This document shows, piece by piece, positions 13,246-22,722 of a DNA stretch of 64,000 bases. How positions within the stretch are numbered: the stretch's first letter is position 1; each line of letters starts with the position of its first letter. Location of the stretch: contig CALKJO010000009.1 of NCBI GenBank assembly GCA_937995825.1, positions 310,001 through 374,000 on the forward strand. The letters are read 5' to 3'. The translations under genes and the position numbers were made by a program. The notes beneath the pieces were generated by a model. The model was not told the DNA's origin. It ran no database searches and saw nothing but the letters and a program-made list of their open reading frames with translations. This DNA is from an uncultured Anaerolineae bacterium. GTDB lineage: Bacteria; Chloroflexota; Anaerolineae; Aggregatilineales; Phototrophicaceae.

Positions 13246-14643
13246 ATGCGCTATCACATTCTCACTTTCGGCTGTCAAATGAACACAGCGGACTCGCAGC
13301 AGCTTGCGTCTGAGCTGGAGCGGCTGGGCTGCTTGGCGGTGGACAACCCTGATCAGGCGGACATTGTGGTGGTCAACACCTGCGTCGTGCGTCAGCAGGC
13401 GGAAGAACGCGCGCTCAATCGCCTCTATCTGCTGCGCGACGCTAAACAGCGTGACCCGAACAAGGTGATCGGCGTCATGGGCTGCATGGTCGGCGTGCGC
13501 GACTCGCTGGCGCTGCGCAAGAAACTGCCTTTTGTGGATGTCTTTCTGCCGCCGTCTGAGCCGCAGCCGATGGTGGAATTCCTCAAAGCGCGCATGACTG
13601 AGCATGAACTCCGCGAGATTGAAGCGCGCGATCGCGCGCGCCGCGATGCCTTTCAGGACGGCGACTTTGCCGACAGCGCGCTCATCCTGCCAGCCCATGA
13701 GCAGGGCAGGCTGATCAGCGCCCACGTGCCGGTCGTCTACGGCTGCTCGCACGCCTGCACCTTCTGCATCATCCCCTTCCGGCGCGGCATTGAGCGCAGC
13801 CGCAGCGTCGGCGAGATCGTCGCCCACGTGCGCAGTCTGGCGCGCCAAGGCGTCAAAGAGATCACGCTGCTCGGTCAGATCGTGGATCGCTATGGCAAGG
13901 ATATCCCCGACGGACCCAATCTGGCGCAGCTTTTGCGCATCCTCGACGGCATCGGCACAGAGATCGGCATCGAGCGCATCCGCTTCCTGACCAGTCATCC
14001 CAACTGGATGACGGATGAACTTCTGGACGCGGTGGCAGAACTGCCGCGCGTCATGCCGCATATCGAAGTGCCTGTGCAGGCGGGCGATGATACCGTGCTT
14101 GCGAACATGAAGCGCGGTTACACCGCCGACGATTACCGCCGATTGATCGAGCGCATCCGCCAGCGCATCCCACAGGTCGCTATCAACACCGATATCATCG
14201 TTGGCTTCCCCGGTGAAACGGATGCGCAGTTCCAGCGCACCTATGACCTGCTGGCAGAACTCAAGCTTGACAAGGTGCATCTGGCGCGCTACAGCCCGCG
14301 CCCTGGCACAGTGAGCGCGCGGCGCATGGATGATGATGTGCCGGAAAGCGAGAAAAGACGCCGCCATGAAGCGCTTGAGGCGCTGCAAGAGCGCACGCTG
14401 GCGGAGCTCAACAGCCGCTATCTGGGCGAGACTGTGCAGGTGCTGGTCGAAGATCAAGTCAGAGGCAAATGGCGCGGGCGCACCCCTCAGAATAAGCTAG
14501 TCTTTTTTGAAAGCGCCGGCGATCTTCGTGGCAGACTGATGAATGTGCAGATCACCTGGACGGGTCCGTGGAGTCTGCAAGGGCGTATCCCCCTGTCAGC
14601 AGACGCACGTGAGGACGCACCATTGATTGTGCTGGCGAGTTAG
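13246..14643 (+). CDS. miaB: tRNA-2-methylthio-N6-dimethylallyladenosine synthase
   Basis: Adds the 2-methylthio group to i6A37 in tRNAs that read UNN codons, using two iron-sulfur clusters and S-adenosylmethionine. The 465-residue protein has the UPF0004 N-terminal domain with cluster cysteines Cys10, Cys46 and Cys80, the radical SAM motif CxxxCxxC at Cys167, Cys171 and Cys174, and a C-terminal TRAM RNA-binding domain (about residues 390-460). Among methylthiotransferases the Phe-Gly-Cys-Gln-Met-Asn start and the Gly-Ile-Glu-Arg-Ser-Arg segment point to MiaB rather than RimO or MtaB. It appears monocistronic with its own promoter. Confidence 0.9.
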   Translation: MRYHILTFGCQMNTADSQQLASELERLGCLAVDNPDQADIVVVNTCVVRQQAEERALNRLYLLRDAKQRDPNKVIGVMGCMVGVRDSLALRKKLPFVDVFLPPSEPQPMVEFLKARMTEHELREIEARDRARRDAFQDGDFADSALILPAHEQGRLISAHVPVVYGCSHACTFCIIPFRRGIERSRSVGEIVAHVRSLARQGVKEITLLGQIVDRYGKDIPDGPNLAQLLRILDGIGTEIGIERIRFLTSHPNWMTDELLDAVAELPRVMPHIEVPVQAGDDTVLANMKRGYTADDYRRLIERIRQRIPQVAINTDIIVGFPGETDAQFQRTYDLLAELKLDKVHLARYSPRPGTVSARRMDDDVPESEKRRRHEALEALQERTLAELNSRYLGETVQVLVEDQVRGKWRGRTPQNKLVFFESAGDLRGRLMNVQITWTGPWSLQGRIPLSADAREDAPLIVLAS

Positions 14644-15565: not shown

Positions 15566-15605
15566 TGTGCGTTAGATTTTGTTAATGTCTGCTGAGGATG
15601 ATCCA

Positions 15606-16757
15606 ATGGGTTCTCGTCTCTTGCTCCCGTTGATGGCGCTGACGACGCTGCTCATGAGCGCCTGCAATCTATCGAGCAGCAGCAACGCGACGCTGCAGCC
15701 GCTCACGCAGCCCGCTTCCAGCCGTCCCGTTGTAACCATCACTGCGCCACGCAGCGGCGACACCTTTCCGATCAATGAGGAAATCCTCATCAGCGCGACA
15801 GCCGCTGATCCCGTCGGGATCACCCGCGTTCAGTTGATTGTCAACGGGCAGATCAGCAAAACCGTGACCGCCAACGGCGAGACCAACTTCTCCGCCCTGC
15901 TCGATTTCATCCCGCGCCAAGCAGGAACCGTGACAGTGCAGGTGATCGCGTATCGCTCATCCGTCGCCAGTGACCCCGCGCAGATACAGCTCACCATCGG
16001 ACAGTTGACCCTCGTCAGGACGCCCTCAGCAACGCCGCAGATCATCGTCCCGACATCGGTTTTCCCAACCGCCAATCCGGCGAATCCACTCTGCCGCGTG
16101 CGGACAGTTTCCAACGTCAACCTCCGTCCAGGACCGGGAACCACTTTCACACCTGTGCTTGCCGTCATGCCAAGCGGAACCGAAGCGCCAATTATTGGGC
16201 GGCTGTCCGATAATACCTGGTGGAACATCCGCTTTGCTAACCTCACTGGCTGGGTCAGCGCGAATGTAGTGCAGGTGCTGGGCAACTGCTTCAACATTCC
16301 GGTGATCGCGCCGCCTTCGCCGCCTGCAACCCCCGTCACTTTCCAGCCGCCGACCAGCGCGCCGACCGCCACACCAATACCGACCGCTACACCAGGTCTG
16401 CCCGATCTGCTTGTCACCGGGCTGACGATTGTCGGCTCGCCCAATCTATCGCTCAGTCTGGAGGGGACGCCGGTCTCGATCACGTTCTCCACCGTGATCA
16501 CCAACAACGGCGGCGGCGGAACTGGTCAGTTCACAAACAGCGTCCTGATCATGCCAGATAACATCACGCAGGAGATCGGCGTCGTCGGCGCGCTCGGACC
16601 GGGTCAGAGCGTTGTCCAGGAATTCACGCTGACTTTCATCACCGCTGGACAGCGCACGATTCAGGTTCGGGCGGACAGCGGCAGTCAGGTGACCGAGATG
16701 AGTGAAGTCAACAACACCGGTCAGATCAATGTGACGATCCTGCCCCCACCGCTGTGA
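15606..16757 (+). CDS. Lipoprotein with Ig-like, SH3b and CARDB domains
   Basis: A 383-residue surface lipoprotein. The signal peptide ends in a lipobox Leu-Met-Ser-Ala-Cys (Cys20). An Ig-like beta domain follows (about residues 40-135), then a bacterial SH3 domain (about 160-225, with Asn-Leu-Arg-Pro-Gly-Pro-Gly and Gly-Trp-Val), a Pro/Thr-rich linker (about 235-265) and a C-terminal CARDB-type beta domain (about 268-380) with the Pro-Asp-Leu-Leu-Val start. Such parts bind peptidoglycan or surface glycans and proteins. ATG 15606 is preceded by GAGGATG; the upstream in-frame ATGs would disrupt the signal. It is 13 bases before the next gene, so they probably share a transcript. Confidence 0.85.
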   Translation: MGSRLLLPLMALTTLLMSACNLSSSSNATLQPLTQPASSRPVVTITAPRSGDTFPINEEILISATAADPVGITRVQLIVNGQISKTVTANGETNFSALLDFIPRQAGTVTVQVIAYRSSVASDPAQIQLTIGQLTLVRTPSATPQIIVPTSVFPTANPANPLCRVRTVSNVNLRPGPGTTFTPVLAVMPSGTEAPIIGRLSDNTWWNIRFANLTGWVSANVVQVLGNCFNIPVIAPPSPPATPVTFQPPTSAPTATPIPTATPGLPDLLVTGLTIVGSPNLSLSLEGTPVSITFSTVITNNGGGGTGQFTNSVLIMPDNITQEIGVVGALGPGQSVVQEFTLTFITAGQRTIQVRADSGSQVTEMSEVNNTGQINVTILPPPL

Positions 16758-16770
16758 GCGAGAGAGCGCC

Positions 16771-19212
16771 ATGATCACTTATGTTCTGATGATCCACCGC
16801 CAGCTTGCTTTCGCTGTCACTTTCAAACAAGCATTGGAGCGCGCAGGCGCGTTTCAAGTGCATCCCTTCACATCGCCTGACGATGCCATCGCCTACCTGA
16901 AAGACAATACACAGGACATCGCGCTGGTCGATTTCGGGTTTCCAGACGCGCCGTCGATCATTGTGGCGCTGCGCGCTCAGCAGCCTGATCTTGCTATCAT
17001 CGCAGCGCCAGCGCAGCCGGACAACGTGATGCGCGCGCTCAATTTACAGGGCGCGGTCAATGCGCGCTTCACTGCGCGTGAAGTGCTGCCGCTGCTCAAC
17101 GAGATCATGCTGATGCGCACAGGGCGCAGCAGTCAGCCATCAGGCGCAACTGTGCCGCTGCCCACCGGCGATCTGCCAGAACTGCCAACGACACAGCCGA
17201 AAAAATCGTCTGATGACGAAAGCCTAACGTCGCTGGTCGATAAGCTGTCGCGTCTACGTGAAGCGCCGCAGCACAAGCCGCTCACCCCGCGCCAAGAGCG
17301 CTTCGTCGAGTTCGTCCTCAACGATGGCATGGACGACATCTTCAGCGACATTGCCGAGAGAAAGCGCGCAGCGCCGATCAAGCCGGAAAATGTGCCGCCA
17401 CCATCGATACCGGAGTCGCCGCACGCCCCAGCAGACCGGCTTGCAGAAGAAGAACCGGAACTTCCAGCGTTTGATGAAAACGGCACGGTCAGCGACCTGG
17501 TCACTAGCGTCACCGACAAAAGCTTTCGCAATGTCATATCGATCATGCGCGGTGAGGATGAGCGGGTCGAAGAGGAGTCGAGCGGTATCCTGCGTTTCAG
17601 CGCTGAAGACATGGCAGGCGCCTTTTCGACCCAACGAGAAGATGCGCCGCCGCAGCCGGACAGGCTGCCCGAACGCAAATTCGAGTATGACTTTGATGAG
17701 ATGACTGCGCCGCAGGACGGTGACGCAGCGACAAAGCTGAAGACTGAACTGGATCGCGATCTGGAGCAGTATCTGGCATCATTGGAAGTGAACACGCCAG
17801 CGGTCGATGAACCGGTCAGCGAGCGCTTCCCATTCGAACGTCCGCCGCAGTTTTCGGACATGGACACGCCAGCGCGCATCATCCTTGAACAGACCCTCGG
17901 CGACTCGACGCAGATTGACTCGTTCTCAGTCTCGGAGCTGATCGCCAGCATCGAGGCGCAGCTCCCTGAAAACCGTCCGAAGGTGCAGCCGCTCCCATCA
18001 TGGCTGTTGGAGAGCGAGCAAAAAGCCGAGGATGTCGCGCGGTTCATCGAGGAACCGGATTTCCTGCCGGACACGCTGCCCGAAGCCGACCTGCTCGACG
18101 CTGTACAGCCACCTGAGTCGCTGCCCGAAAGCCCAGTCACCGAGCGTTTCAGCGATCAGGCAACCGTCATCTCTCAGCGTCAGCGGCTCGAGTCCGAGAC
18201 GATGGACGATGCCACCGAATGGCTTCAGCCCACTTCAGAAGTCTTCCCCGAAGCACCCTGGCTTGAGGAACCGCCCGCAGCCCCGATGCCCGTTGAAGCC
18301 GTGCCGGAGGCTCCGAAAGCCGCTGATGCAGCGAGCGGCGCTTTCACGCTAGCAGAACCGATCAGCGATCCGCATATCGCGCAGCTTGCGCTCAGCCTGA
18401 CTCAGGTCTCGCTTGAATTGACGGCACAGGCGGCACTGCTGGCGCGCAGCGGGCGAATCGTCGCCTATGCAGGCTCGATGGATCGCGTCGATATGGATGA
18501 GCTGCGCCGCGCGATTAATGACGATTGGGAGGCGCAGCCCCGCCAGGCACGCATCCGCATGGTGACGATTGAGAACGCGGGCAAGGAATACATGCTGTAT
18601 TCCAAGCTGACCGATGACGGCTTTACTCTCTCGCTGATCTTCACGGGCGCAACACCGCTGCGCGACATCCGCAAGCAGAGCAAGCGTCTGCTCGATGCGC
18701 TGGAAGCCGTGCCTGATCAGCCTGCAGGAACGACCGCTCCAGAAGACGCGCCAACGCAGGATGCGCCCAAAGGTGTGACTGAGCTGCCGACCGAAGAGGC
18801 GCTCACCCCAGAGGAACGCGCCGCTATCAGCGCGGCAGCCAACGCCAATAGCGAGATGATGACGGCATACGCGGTGGTCTGGCTGCTGCGCGATCCCGCG
18901 AGCAGTCTGGACGTGGCGACCAGCAGCGCGATCATCAGCGGGATGAACATTCAGCTCACTGAGCGCGCCTGGCAAATCCAGGATTTACAGGCAAAAGAAG
19001 ACTTTGTATATCTGCTGGCGAACATTCCGGGCGACATCCCGCCGTATGAAATCGTGCGCGACCTCAAACGGCGCTCCGCCGAGATCGCGCACCGCCAGAA
19101 TCCCACGCTGAAACCGGATACGCTCTGGGCGGATGGCTATCTGGTCGTCACGCCGGGGCGTCAGCTCGATGCAGACGAGATTCAGCAGTTCATCAACTTC
19201 GAACGGATGTGA
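16771..19212 (+). CDS. Receiver-like / Roadblock-like protein ending in a dead IS200-type transposase fold
   Basis: An 813-residue cytoplasmic protein. Residues 1-120 resemble a response-regulator receiver; the Asp in Leu-Val-Asp-Phe is kept but the acidic pair is missing. Residues 125-530 are acidic, Pro-rich and probably disordered. Residues 534-647 resemble a Roadblock/LC7 domain. Residues 680-813 follow the order of the IS200/IS605 Y1 transposase: a start like Tyr-x-x-Val-Trp, an Asp-x-Val-x-Leu-Leu strand, the Pro-x-Glu-Ile-Val-Arg-x-Leu-Lys helix, Leu-Trp-x-x-Gly-Tyr and a final helix. All three catalytic positions appear changed: the HUH pair reads Phe745-Val-Tyr747 and the last-helix Tyr is Phe807. 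The domain is thus expected to be inactive, perhaps a nucleic-acid or protein-binding module. The gene overlaps or abuts polA. Confidence 0.65.
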   Translation: MITYVLMIHRQLAFAVTFKQALERAGAFQVHPFTSPDDAIAYLKDNTQDIALVDFGFPDAPSIIVALRAQQPDLAIIAAPAQPDNVMRALNLQGAVNARFTAREVLPLLNEIMLMRTGRSSQPSGATVPLPTGDLPELPTTQPKKSSDDESLTSLVDKLSRLREAPQHKPLTPRQERFVEFVLNDGMDDIFSDIAERKRAAPIKPENVPPPSIPESPHAPADRLAEEEPELPAFDENGTVSDLVTSVTDKSFRNVISIMRGEDERVEEESSGILRFSAEDMAGAFSTQREDAPPQPDRLPERKFEYDFDEMTAPQDGDAATKLKTELDRDLEQYLASLEVNTPAVDEPVSERFPFERPPQFSDMDTPARIILEQTLGDSTQIDSFSVSELIASIEAQLPENRPKVQPLPSWLLESEQKAEDVARFIEEPDFLPDTLPEADLLDAVQPPESLPESPVTERFSDQATVISQRQRLESETMDDATEWLQPTSEVFPEAPWLEEPPAAPMPVEAVPEAPKAADAASGAFTLAEPISDPHIAQLALSLTQVSLELTAQAALLARSGRIVAYAGSMDRVDMDELRRAINDDWEAQPRQARIRMVTIENAGKEYMLYSKLTDDGFTLSLIFTGATPLRDIRKQSKRLLDALEAVPDQPAGTTAPEDAPTQDAPKGVTELPTEEALTPEERAAISAAANANSEMMTAYAVVWLLRDPASSLDVATSSAIISGMNIQLTERAWQIQDLQAKEDFVYLLANIPGDIPPYEIVRDLKRRSAEIAHRQNPTLKPDTLWADGYLVVTPGRQLDADEIQQFINFERM

Positions 19213-19214
19213 CA

Positions 19215-22079
19215 ATGGCAGAACGCCCGATGCTCTATCTGCTGGATGGTCACGCGCTCGCTTATCGCCATCACTTCGCCATGATCACGCGCCCGCTGAC
19301 CCAAGCCAGAACGGGCGAGATCGTCAGCGCAGTTTTCGGGTTCAGCCGCACACTGCTCGAACTGCTAGAGCGTGAGCGCCCGTACTATCTGGCAGTCGCC
19401 TTCGATGAAGGACTCACCGGGCGCGATCAGCTCTACCCTGACTACAAAGGCACACGCGAAAAAATGCCCGATGATCTGGCGGCGCAAATGAGCCGGATTC
19501 AGCAGGTAGTGCGCGCTTTCAACATCCCGATTCTATCCTTGCCCGGCTATGAAGCCGATGATGTCATGGGGACGATTGCAGCGCAGGCGGAAAAGCAGGA
19601 TGTGTTCACGCGCATCGTCACCGGCGACCGCGACCTGCTTCAACTGCTGACCGCGCATATCAGCGTGCGCTTCTCGTCCACAAAAGCGGGCGCAGGCGAT
19701 GAGGTCTATGAGCCGGAGCGCTTTCGCGCCGAATATGGCTTTGAGCCGATCCACCTCACCGATTACAAAGGCTTAGTCGGCGATACGTCGGACAATATCC
19801 CCGGCGTGCGCGGCATTGGCGATAAGACCGCGCGGACGCTGCTTCAGCAATATGGCGATCTAGAGCGGATTTACGAAAATATCGATCTGATCAAAGGGGC
19901 ACTTCGGCAAAAACTGATCGATGGGCGTGAGCTGGCATTCCTGAGCCGAGAACTGGCGACGATCCATCGGGACGCGCCGATCACGCTCGACCTCAATGCC
20001 TGTGTCGCTCATGAATTCGATCACGCGGCGGTCGAGGCGCTGTTCCGCGAGCTGGAATTCGGCAGCTTGTTCAAATCCCTTGATCGGCTGCGCGAAAGAC
20101 AGACTCAGCCAACGTCACAACCTGCCGCTCAGATGGAGCGCGAACAAGCAAAGATAGAACGGACGCAGCAGTTGAACCTGTTTGAGATGGCTGTGCCGGT
20201 CGATCCGCTGCCTGGCACGACCACCGTGATCGTGGACACACCGGACAAGCTGCGCGCTCTGACAGCGCGGCTTGAGACGGCGGCGATGATCGCGTTCGAC
20301 ACCGAAACCACCAGCACAAGCCATGTCTTCGCCGATCTAGTCGGCATTTCGCTGGCGGTCGATGCACAGACCAGCTATTACATCCCGCTGGGACATCGCA
20401 AAGGCGCTCAACTGCCCATCGAAGCTGTGCTAAACGCGCTGCGCCCTACTATGACAAACCCCAATATCCCAAAGGCGGCGCACAATGCGCTGTTCGACTT
20501 CGCCATGCTGCGGCGTTACGGGCTGGAAGTCGCGCCGATTGGCTGCGACACAATGGTTGCAAAATGGCTGCTCGACCCGAATGATGGCGAAAATGTGCGC
20601 GGCAATCTGGGGCTGAAGCGGCTGGCGCGCATCGAACTGAACATCGACATGACACCCATTGAACGGCTGATCGGCGCGGGCAGGAACCAGATCACGATGG
20701 ATCAGGTCAGCATCGAATGCGCAGCGAATTATGCCGCTGCCGATGCCTTGGTCACATGGCAGCTTGTCCCCAAGATGACCGAAAAGCTCGCCGCAGAGCC
20801 GCAGCAGGAGCGCGATCCGCTGTGGGGAACGGACAACCCGCCGACCCTGACCGACCTGTTTCACACGCTTGAGCTGCCGCTGATCCCGGTGCTGGCGTCA
20901 ATGGAGCTGACCGGCGTCCTGCTCGATACGGCGCACCTGGCGAAAATGAGCCGTGAGCTTGGCGAGTCGGTCGCCGCGCTGGAGCGCGAGATTCACGCGC
21001 TGGCGGGCAAAACTTTCAACGTCAACAGCCCGAAGCAGATGAATGAAGTGCTGTTTGAGCATCTCAAACTGAAAGCCGAAGGCGTTCGCAAGACTTCGCT
21101 CGGCTTTTCAACCGCCGCCGATGTGCTGGAAAATCTGCGCGGCGCGCATCCAATCGTCAATAAAATCCTCGAATACCGCGAGCTGGTCAAGCTGAAAGGG
21201 ACGTATATTGACGCGCTTCCCAACCTGATCAATCCGGTCAGCGGGCGCGTCCACACCAGCTACAACCAGACTGGAACCAGCACCGGACGCATTTCCAGCA
21301 GCGATCCGAATTTGCAGAATATCCCGATCCGCACTGAGACCGGTCGCGCTGTGCGCGCCGCGTTCATCGCGCCGGAGGGCTGGCGGCTGCTGTCGGTCGA
21401 TTACAGCCAAGTCGAGCTGCGCATCCTAGCGCATATCAGCCAGGAGCCAACGCTGCTGACCGCCTTTGCCGAAGGTCAGGACATTCACGCCGCAACCGCC
21501 GCTGTCATTTACAACGTGCCGACGACGGCGGTCACCAAAGAACAGCGCATCTTCGCCAAGCGGGTCAATTTTGGGATTCTCTACGGCATGGGCGCGTTTC
21601 GGCTGGCGCGCGACAGCGATCTGACGCTGGCGGAAGCGCGTAAGTTCATCGAGACCTATTTCGAACGGCTGCCCGGCGTCCAGCGCTATATCGAAGGCGC
21701 TAAAGCGCTGGCGCGGTCGCAGGGCTACCTGACGACGCTCTTCGGGCGGCGCAGGCGCTTCCCCGGCATCCACTCGTCGCGCGCCAGCGATGTCGCGGCG
21801 GCAGAGCGCGAAGCGATCAACATGCCGATTCAAGGGACAGCGGCGGACATCATGAAACGCGCTATGATCGATCTCTATGCAGCGCTGCAAAAAAGCAACC
21901 GCCGCGCCCGCCTGCTCTTGCAGGTGCATGACGAATTGGTGCTGGAAGTCCCTGAGGAAGAACTCGCAGACACCGCGGCGCTGGTGGTGCGCGTGATGGA
22001 GAATGCCGCGGCGCTGGCTGCGCCGCTGAAGGCGAATGCCCAAGCAGGGGTCAACTGGCGCGATGTCGCGCCGCTGTGA
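19215..22079 (+). CDS. polA: DNA polymerase I
   Basis: Repair and Okazaki-fragment polymerase. The 954-residue protein has all three domains. The 5'-3' FEN-type nuclease spans about residues 1-290. The 3'-5' exonuclease (about 335-520) has its three motifs intact: Asp362-x-Glu364, Asn-x-x-Phe-Asp and Tyr-x-x-x-Asp, so it should proofread. The polymerase domain (about 550-954) has motif A Asp729-Tyr-Ser, motif B Arg-x-x-x-Lys-x-x-x-Phe-Gly-x-x-Tyr-Gly and motif C His-Asp906-Glu. ATG 19215 is two bases after the preceding stop; a GTG at 19209 overlapping that stop is an alternative. Coupling to the upstream signalling gene is likely. Confidence 0.95.
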   Translation: MAERPMLYLLDGHALAYRHHFAMITRPLTQARTGEIVSAVFGFSRTLLELLERERPYYLAVAFDEGLTGRDQLYPDYKGTREKMPDDLAAQMSRIQQVVRAFNIPILSLPGYEADDVMGTIAAQAEKQDVFTRIVTGDRDLLQLLTAHISVRFSSTKAGAGDEVYEPERFRAEYGFEPIHLTDYKGLVGDTSDNIPGVRGIGDKTARTLLQQYGDLERIYENIDLIKGALRQKLIDGRELAFLSRELATIHRDAPITLDLNACVAHEFDHAAVEALFRELEFGSLFKSLDRLRERQTQPTSQPAAQMEREQAKIERTQQLNLFEMAVPVDPLPGTTTVIVDTPDKLRALTARLETAAMIAFDTETTSTSHVFADLVGISLAVDAQTSYYIPLGHRKGAQLPIEAVLNALRPTMTNPNIPKAAHNALFDFAMLRRYGLEVAPIGCDTMVAKWLLDPNDGENVRGNLGLKRLARIELNIDMTPIERLIGAGRNQITMDQVSIECAANYAAADALVTWQLVPKMTEKLAAEPQQERDPLWGTDNPPTLTDLFHTLELPLIPVLASMELTGVLLDTAHLAKMSRELGESVAALEREIHALAGKTFNVNSPKQMNEVLFEHLKLKAEGVRKTSLGFSTAADVLENLRGAHPIVNKILEYRELVKLKGTYIDALPNLINPVSGRVHTSYNQTGTSTGRISSSDPNLQNIPIRTETGRAVRAAFIAPEGWRLLSVDYSQVELRILAHISQEPTLLTAFAEGQDIHAATAAVIYNVPTTAVTKEQRIFAKRVNFGILYGMGAFRLARDSDLTLAEARKFIETYFERLPGVQRYIEGAKALARSQGYLTTLFGRRRRFPGIHSSRASDVAAAEREAINMPIQGTAADIMKRAMIDLYAALQKSNRRARLLLQVHDELVLEVPEEELADTAALVVRVMENAAALAAPLKANAQAGVNWRDVAPL

Positions 22080-22722
22080 CTAAGGCTGATCTTCGAGCCG
22101 CGCCCTGACGAAAGCTGCAATTTCGGCAAGATCGGGCGCTTTCTTCGACCAAACACGCTTAACAGGCAGGACAAATCCCGGCAGAAGCGGCGTTGAATAA
22201 CTCCCGTTTTGATCGGGGAACTGCCGCGCATATTTGCCCTGTTCATTCAGCCGATAGAAACTGCTGATTTCGCTATCCGGGTTAAACAACCAGTATTCGG
22301 TGACTCCAGCCACTTCATACTCAAGGAATTTGACGCGGTAATCGCGCTCTGCGCTCTCTAGGGACACGATCTCAATGCAAAATGTCAGCAGCGCCTTCAA
22401 CGTGCGTGTCTTTCACGCGGTCTTTATTCGCATTCAGAACGACCATTAGATCGGGTTCCCGATTTCTGTCCTGCGCAGTCATCTTCAGCAGGAATGGCTG
22501 CGTAAATACCTGCCCGATCTCGCGCAGATTGAAATAGGCGGTGAGATATGCCCAGAGGTGGCTGTTGGAAAAATAATGCGCCAGGGTTACCGGAGACGTT
22601 TTGATCAGTTCGCCTTCAACCCACTCGTAACCCTGCTCAGCATACGCTGCCAGATACACTGCCTCACTGACATAGCGCGAGGTCTGCTGATCGGCTGAAG
22701 CGCGCAGATCGTGAAGAGTCAT
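22080..22722 (-). pseudogene. Uma2/DUF820-family nuclease-like gene with a frameshift
   Basis: Two overlapping minus-strand frames form one Uma2-type protein. The first (from ATG 22722) holds residues up to Arg-Glu-Pro-Asp-Leu and Glu-Gly-Ala-Ala-Asp-Ile; the second continues with Ile-Glu-Ile-Val-Ser and the Tyr-Arg-x-Lys-Phe-x-Glu-Tyr motif that carries the Lys of the PD-(D/E)XK-like fold. Dropping one base from the four-base A run at 22379-22382 joins them into a 213-residue protein with no other lesion. So this is a recent frameshift or a sequencing error. Uma2 genes are common and multicopy in Chloroflexota and cyanobacteria with unsettled function. It converges with polA with no gap. Confidence 0.8.

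Follow-up and report, generated by a model that had tools for sequence, protein, structure and literature searches.

The protein studied here ends in a domain that, by sequence comparison, is homologous to the Y1 transposases (TnpA) of IS200/IS605 insertion sequences but has lost their catalytic residues. Its gene lies directly upstream of polA in a 64,000-nucleotide stretch of DNA (hereafter the window) from an uncultured Anaerolineae bacterium of the phylum Chloroflexota (assembly GCA_937995825.1, contig CALKJO010000009.1, positions 310,001 to 374,000). In the 813-residue product, the last 115 residues follow a receiver-like domain, an acidic linker and a Roadblock-like domain. We think that the Y1 fold was probably captured once (with a later loss in one relative, G272) and that it serves as a module for dimerisation or for docking of a partner protein. 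The parts of the gene, by position in the window, are:

16771..19212, + strand: whole gene, 813 amino acids (receiver-like domain, acidic linker, Roadblock domain, linker, dead Y1 domain)
16771..17115, + strand: degenerate receiver-like domain, residues about 1-115 (Pfam and NCBIfam matches under cut-off; alignment of relatives)
17116..18366, + strand: long acidic proline-rich linker with a PLPSWL motif (composition)
18367..18717, + strand: Roadblock/LC7-like domain, residues 533-649 (profile match to MglB)
18865..19209, + strand: catalytically dead Y1 (IS200/IS605 TnpA) domain, residues 699-813 (Pfam, NCBIfam and profile comparisons)
19003..19011, + strand: former HUH motif, now Phe745-Val746-Tyr747 (alignment, sequence)
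19189..19191, + strand: former catalytic Tyr, now Phe807 (alignment, sequence)
19201..19203, + strand: third metal ligand position, Gln in TnpA and here Glu811 (alignment, sequence; role of Gln as described in PMC6006769)

The original prediction had read the transposase parentage from the order of conserved segments in positions 18811-19212 (residues 681-813 plus the stop codon), and the comparisons agree with it. Residues 699-813 exceed the gathering score of Pfam PF01797 (Y1_Tnp), with 41.6 bits (E = 1.6e-10) for the tail alone and 36.7 bits for the whole protein against a cut-off of 23. The NCBIfam model for IS200/IS605 transposases gives E = 1.6e-9 and 38.1 bits, which is under that model's strict cut-off of 55. 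A profile-profile comparison with ten genuine transposases has a probability of 99.4% (E = 1e-21, 113 columns). Finally, in the profile check against known structures that had been proposed, an alignment of 30 Y1 tails (profile A1) placed eight Y1 transposase sequences from PDB on top (2f4f at E = 3.4e-14 down to 2vhg at E = 4.4e-7), and its first match outside the Y1 group was an unrelated protein at E = 0.011.

The 30 tails share eight invariant columns, and families are 26-66% identical to the window's Y1 domain. For finer comparisons we used a fused set of 46 rows (45 genomes and 11 family groups of the class) and a comparison set of 27 transposases. Tyr700, Trp704, Leu713, Trp734, Trp786 and Tyr790 are mostly conserved in the fused copies. 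Two segments had been named as retained fold-defining residues: Trp786 and Tyr790, in LWADGY, are indeed common to the Y1 domain and transposases, but PYEIVRDLK, although present, is no transposase hallmark. The column of residue 766 is Lys in 27/27 transposases and Lys or Arg in 11/46 and 12/46 of the fused copies, respectively; the window has Lys. The usual format of a free-standing and often multicopy Y1 protein of about 150 amino acids is not what we see: this is an 813-residue fusion, with a single PF01797 match in the 3.49-Mb assembly. The recurrence of the fused gene's neighbourhood in many genomes also speaks against mobility. (We also considered, by eye, whether an internal start at the two Met that precede the domain yields a free-standing Y1 product, and rejected this because few relatives have a Met there.)

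The catalytic residues are gone. Sequence and alignment both confirm the earlier claim that the HUH motif reads Phe745-Val-Tyr747 and that the nucleophile is Phe807. In TnpA, Gln is described as the third metal ligand, and Tyr---Gln as a signature of subclass 1.1 (PMC6006769); here the residue four positions after Phe807 is Glu811, so that the domain is without His, His, Tyr and the Gln ligand. The combination of both His residues with Tyr is present in 0/46 fused copies vs 23/27 transposases, so the loss in the window's protein is not local decay. At least one His is gone in 46/46 fused copies and both in 37/46, so that no copy has the pair; Tyr is kept in 10/46. Among the 28 rows from the window's own taxonomic order, 24 lack both His and read Phe at the Tyr position (the Gln survives in 8 of them), one has Tyr without His, and three have the first His only. 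The 18 rows from other families comprise nine with Tyr and no His, five with the second His, one with the first His, and three with none of these. By family (codes such as f1 and f9 are labels for family groups), the first His remains in f20 and f7, the second His in f15, whose five members are weak matches to the Y1 profile (14 to 33 bits), and Tyr in most f9, f12 and f121 copies. Capture of an intact enzyme, followed by loss of its residues by different routes, would produce such differences. Thus, the replacement of three catalytic residues by aromatic ones describes the window's protein but is no rule for the class, where other families keep Tyr or one His. Two side observations concern annotation and a comparison protein. 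A fused dead member of f9 (L054:286-1884, +) scores 57.2 bits against the NCBIfam IS200/IS605 cut-off of 55 and is a likely source of mis-annotation, and a free-standing Y1-like protein from another class (L060, in G212) has Arg-Val-Tyr in place of HUH and looks dead.

Despite the loss of catalysis, the Y1 domain is, judging from its substitutions, under purifying selection. Its dN/dS (Nei-Gojobori) was defined in 10 of 12 pairs, at 0.03-0.32, and these values are rough because dS was above 1 in 7 of the 10; the three pairs with dS < 1 gave 0.08, 0.21 and 0.32. The linker before the Y1 domain had a higher dN/dS than the domain itself in 9/9 pairs with both values defined, and the Y1 values were near those of the Roadblock domain. 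The proposed domestication therefore stands, in that the core of a transposase-derived fold appears to be kept under purifying selection with catalysis lost across families.

The fused protein is widespread within one class. In a search of 41 genomes (the window's own included), 39 matched some part of the protein and 38 the Y1 region; G038 matched in the receiver part only, and G025 and G032 did not match. Profile A1 matched 81 of 400 genomes of the phylum, and its matches in frames of at least 430 amino acids were all in the same class, except for a 580-amino-acid frame of G268 that contains an internal stop. With a wider profile (A4) there were matches, transposases included, in 146 of 395 genomes of the class; at least 73 of the 395 have, among the matches listed, a Y1 match at E = 1e-14 or better in a frame of at least 430 amino acids. 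The group lies within Chloroflexota, and one relative (L032) is Chloroflexi bacterium OLB15. The order receiver, Roadblock, Y1 occurs in 11 family groups: f1, f3, f4, f6, f7 and f8 in the window's taxonomic order and f9, f12, f15, f20 and f121 elsewhere in the class. Relatives without the Y1 domain, fetched from f17, f19, f107, f125, f129, f132 and f134, end at most about 50 residues past the Roadblock domain. (Near-duplicate loci of one genome were left out: L001, L032, L033 and L034 from one set of relatives, and L001, L006, L009 and L011 from another.) In G030 there are two copies of the gene (L095 and L096) with identical Y1 domains, and the copy on contig C1 is split, with the receiver and the Roadblock-Y1 part in different frames.

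In a tree of 79 Y1 domains (rows with fewer than 70 aligned residues were left out of this and the Roadblock tree), one branch parts the 27 transposases from the 46 fused and 6 free-standing dead sequences (support 97/93; found in 100% of 200 bootstrap trees). Four transposases from PDB, when added, also fell on the transposase side (97 in a quick tree), but they form no single group and thus do not root the tree. A single branch between dead and ordinary Y1 sequences is consistent with one capture. The fused and free-standing f9 copies fall on one branch (100/99). The Roadblock tree unites all but one of its 16 Y1-less rows (15 rows, 99/94). The odd one, G272, sits with two f12 rows, which suggests that it lost its Y1 domain, but these three branches are all long. 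As the Roadblock tree is unrooted, gain rather than loss of the Y1 domain by a receiver-Roadblock gene is a matter of plausibility.

The rest of the protein looks like a signalling protein. The middle domain had been called Roadblock-like, and a profile of 38 members (A5, residues 533-649) bears this out: compared with solved structures, it finds eight chains of MglB (Roadblock/LC7) first, at E = 6.9e-5 to 0.018, and its next match is at 0.6. (A Pfam identity for this domain gave only noise and was replaced by the MglB match.) The description of the N-terminus as a degenerate receiver is upheld in part, as there are matches to receiver models here and in L032, but all are under the cut-offs. 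Pfam Response_reg (PF00072) gives E = 0.014 and 15.9 bits against a cut-off of 30.2, NCBIfam CreB gives E = 1.9e-6, also under its cut-off, and L032 does better with PF00072 at 27.5 bits vs 30.2. Of the usual set of Asp, acidic pair and Lys, the window's protein keeps Asp54 and by eye has lost the others. The receivers of the Y1-less relatives are by eye near canonical, and L142 matches receiver models to E = 1.7e-10. The acidic linker spans 417 residues (21% Asp or Glu, 9% Lys or Arg, 12% Pro). A PSWL motif with similar surroundings occurs in 6 of 46 linkers (the window, G009, G700, G031, G037 and G688, in families f1 and f8) and is perhaps a docking motif. The window's genome has three matches to PF03259 and five to PF00025, four of the latter over cut-off; these are weak evidence for a GTPase partner, which need not be MglA-like, because 13 of 14 control genomes also have PF00025 matches.

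The original prediction suggested that the domain might bind DNA or RNA hairpins, and its charge bears on this. Ten columns that hold Lys or Arg in transposases (708-710, 720, 728, 766, 771, 774, 788 and 806) mostly do not in the fused set. The mean net charge of the Y1 domain is +4.7 in the 27 transposases, −6.6 in the 28 rows from the window's taxonomic order, and +0.7 in the other 18 fused rows, which range from −7 to +7; the window's own domain has a net charge of −5. In the window's taxonomic order, the acidity of the domain and the absence of many conserved basic residues argue against TnpA-like hairpin binding. In other families such binding may persist.

The neighbouring genes in the window are:

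13246..14643, + strand: radical-SAM protein with UPF0004 and TRAM domains, MiaB-type by domain set (neighbour family 2)
15579..16757, + strand: Big_7 - SH3_3 - CARDB protein (neighbour family 4)
19209..22079, + strand: polA, DNA polymerase I (5'-3' exonuclease, 3'-5' exonuclease and polymerase A domains; Pfam)

Pfam confirms polA as Pol I. With a GTG start, polA and the fused gene would share 4 bases; there is an ATG 6 bases further on. After polA, on the − strand (22080-22722), two short overlapping frames look by eye like one frameshifted Uma2-type (DUF820) gene. The order methylthiotransferase, unknown gene, Big/SH3/CARDB gene, fused gene and polA is complete in L090 and L092 and partial in L089, L091, L093 and L107. 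For wider counts we took one entry per genome from loci that had already been fetched, which is not a random draw, and left out three with short flanks (G024 and G014, fused; G641, Y1-less). polA lies on the same strand within 1 kb downstream of 43 of 70 assessable fused genes and within 5 kb of two more; it is absent from the 1.5-7.7 kb of available flank for the other 25. (G280 was scored as not adjacent, although a polA-like start lies about 1.4 kb downstream.) The coupling to polA is thus real and often conserved, but polA also adjoins 6 of 15 Y1-less relatives. The polA neighbourhood is therefore a trait of the receiver-Roadblock gene, and co-expression may be all that it reflects; because the Y1-less relatives have it too, it is no evidence on the role of the Y1 domain, and we dropped it as a sign of the role in DNA maintenance that had been proposed.

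Dead Y1 domains also occur on their own. We found eleven short dead Y1 proteins at ten loci in eight f9 genomes (among L162-L166 and L207-L215). None of the eleven has both His residues together with Tyr; two have the first His, two the second His, and seven the Tyr. At six of the ten loci, an Mrr-like gene and then a TPR-related gene lie alongside. (The Mrr-like genes have Mrr_N and Mrr_cat by Pfam in the three that were scanned and were recognised by similarity in the others; the TPR-related gene matches Pfam TPR in L164, L207, L213 and L214 but not in L208 or L212.) Five of these six loci continue with a sensor kinase and a LuxR-type regulator (Pfam; L207, L208, L212, L213 and L214), and the sixth, L164, has a LuxR-type regulator upstream, with its far side outside the fetched sequence. 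Of the other four loci, two have a chemoreceptor gene, one pairs a hybrid kinase with an OmpR-type regulator, and the last, at a contig end, has genes for a TPR-related and a PAS protein. Among 40 control neighbourhoods around fused genes, eight of them from f9, none has an Mrr-like gene and six have a TPR-related gene. At the loci covered, the dead Y1 lineage accompanies signalling genes in both its fused and free-standing forms. In the alignment of the six Mrr-like proteins, the catalytic motif, which we take to be D...QxK, is intact in two, has Lys replaced by Arg in two, and has both Asp and Lys replaced in two. At the loci with an altered motif (L163/L214, L165/L212, L207 and L208), two dead DNA enzymes adjoin each other.

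How might such a protein work? Roadblock domains form dimers. Because of this, because the TnpA of the insertion sequence is described as working as a dimer (PMC6006769), and because Roadblock proteins are described as regulators of small GTPases (PMC4316618), the simplest proposal is that the protein is a dimeric signalling scaffold. Input would arrive through the receiver-like and Roadblock parts, perhaps from a kinase and perhaps from a small GTPase; the acidic linker would serve as a tether; and the dead Y1 domain would hand the signal onward as a contact surface.

The strongest competitor is that the Y1 domain lost cleavage only and still binds structured single-stranded nucleic acid, so that it would sense hairpins at forks or gaps and report through the Roadblock and receiver domains. 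We consider this unlikely but worth serious attention. Y1 transposases are described as hairpin binders (PMC6006769), polA is adjacent in 43/70 cases, and fused copies outside the window's taxonomic order have a mean net charge of +0.7 (−7 to +7); but the fused set mostly lacks the basic residues of ten transposase columns, the window's own domain is acidic, and Y1-less relatives adjoin polA as well. Several further observations favour nucleic-acid binding and count against a purely protein-binding module: position 707 is mostly Arg, Arg has been gained at 797 and is common at 812, the domain is about neutral in the other fused families, and the Mrr-like protein beside the free-standing relatives could point back to nucleic acid. 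Other points also tell against our preferred explanation. E. coli TnpA-REP is reported to appear monomeric (PMC6006769), so a Y1 fold need not dimerise; PF03259 matches the middle domain neither in the window nor in 28 members; and no GTPase was recognised beside the fused gene among those neighbours that were scanned or read. Also, signalling genes are common in general, and our neighbour counts cover only loci of this gene group.

The other alternatives concern the history and state of the domain. Several independent captures by the same receiver-Roadblock gene, each inactivated separately, would account for the different catalytic remnants of f20 and f7, of f15, and of f9, f12 and f121, for the three label changes that the fused group alone needs on the Y1 tree, and for the different neighbours of f15 and f121 on the Roadblock and Y1 trees (weak forks). 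We find this improbable: all of the dead sequences fall together against 27 transposases, or 31 with the PDB chains, f9 fused and free-standing copies are on one branch, and the remnants fit one intact capture with mosaic loss equally well. The case for a single capture does rest on 114 columns, with several weak inner forks, and dead sequences could cluster through shared relaxation. That the domain is a decaying remnant without function seems hardly credible. It would fit the strong divergence between families and the one fused copy of 46 that is in a frame-split gene (G030:C1, where the second copy is whole), but not the low dN/dS, which is near that of the Roadblock domain and below that of the linker, or the eight columns that are invariant in 30 sequences; the high dS in most pairs weakens the selection argument somewhat. 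We give just as little credence to an endonuclease with an altered active site. Although Tyr is kept in 10/46 fused copies, every copy lacks at least one His, most lack both, and the window's domain has none of the four residues.

Among known derivatives of these elements, TldR is an IS605-type protein that has lost catalysis and been reused in regulation; it is an RNA-guided DNA binder derived from TnpB and does not have the TnpA Y1 fold. To our knowledge, TldR has no receiver or Roadblock fusion, the host genes made from IS200/IS605 TnpA (the RAYTs) still have their cutting chemistry, and TldR, as the known derivative that is dead, comes from TnpB. TldRs are described as RNA-guided transcription factors (PMC13418256). 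Our domain resembles subclass 1.1 TnpA in its PF01797 match and in Trp786 and Tyr790, and Tyr---Gln persists as Phe---Gln in 8/28 copies from the window's taxonomic order, all without His; it differs in having no HUH and no Tyr, in the loss of many basic residues, in its fusion to signalling domains and in being single copy. Like RAYT/TnpA-REP, it is a Y1 protein fixed in the chromosome as a host gene, but the HUH-Y core that RAYTs are described as having (PMC6006769) is lost in the window's domain. The middle domain matches chains of MglB, a Roadblock/LC7 regulator of MglA-type GTPases; those chains have 136-192 residues, while here the domain lies between a receiver-like part and a dead transposase. 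A parallel in layout is the receiver-linker-winged-helix protein described for group 3 MglA systems (PMC4316618), which likewise has a receiver-like N-terminus, a linker of variable length and a C-terminal module with ancestors that handled DNA, and whose systems also include Roadblock proteins. There, the C-terminal module is a winged helix rather than Y1 and the Roadblock protein is separate rather than fused. Among the titles and abstract openings listed from the open-access literature we found no report of a dead TnpA domain or of a TnpA fused to signalling domains, which does not imply absence from print. A survey of TnpA-Y1 is described as having dropped unusually long proteins as fusions or errors (PMC6006769), so its filter could have removed such fusions.

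Domesticated transposases are already known; a dead TnpA that serves as a signalling module would be a new variety of them. A serious possibility, a little short of probable, is that a general signal-transduction module arose from one ancient Y1 capture in this Chloroflexota class. In many families it would be the output end of a polA-linked receiver-Roadblock scaffold, and in its free-standing form it would be an adaptor whose operons also encode a sensor kinase, a LuxR-type regulator, a TPR-related protein and an Mrr-like protein, the last often without its own catalytic residues. If so, the fold of a DNA-rearranging enzyme would have become a dedicated signalling adaptor, perhaps linking the state of DNA to kinase or GTPase signalling. 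There is also a warning for annotation: because a dead f9 member exceeds the cut-off of the transposase model (57.2 vs 55), chromosomal signalling genes may be labelled as transposases. A very common transposase would have met a new fate in a dead TnpA that is fixed in a signalling protein across many families of the class; here an enzyme fold loses catalysis by different routes in different lineages and its body remains under selection.

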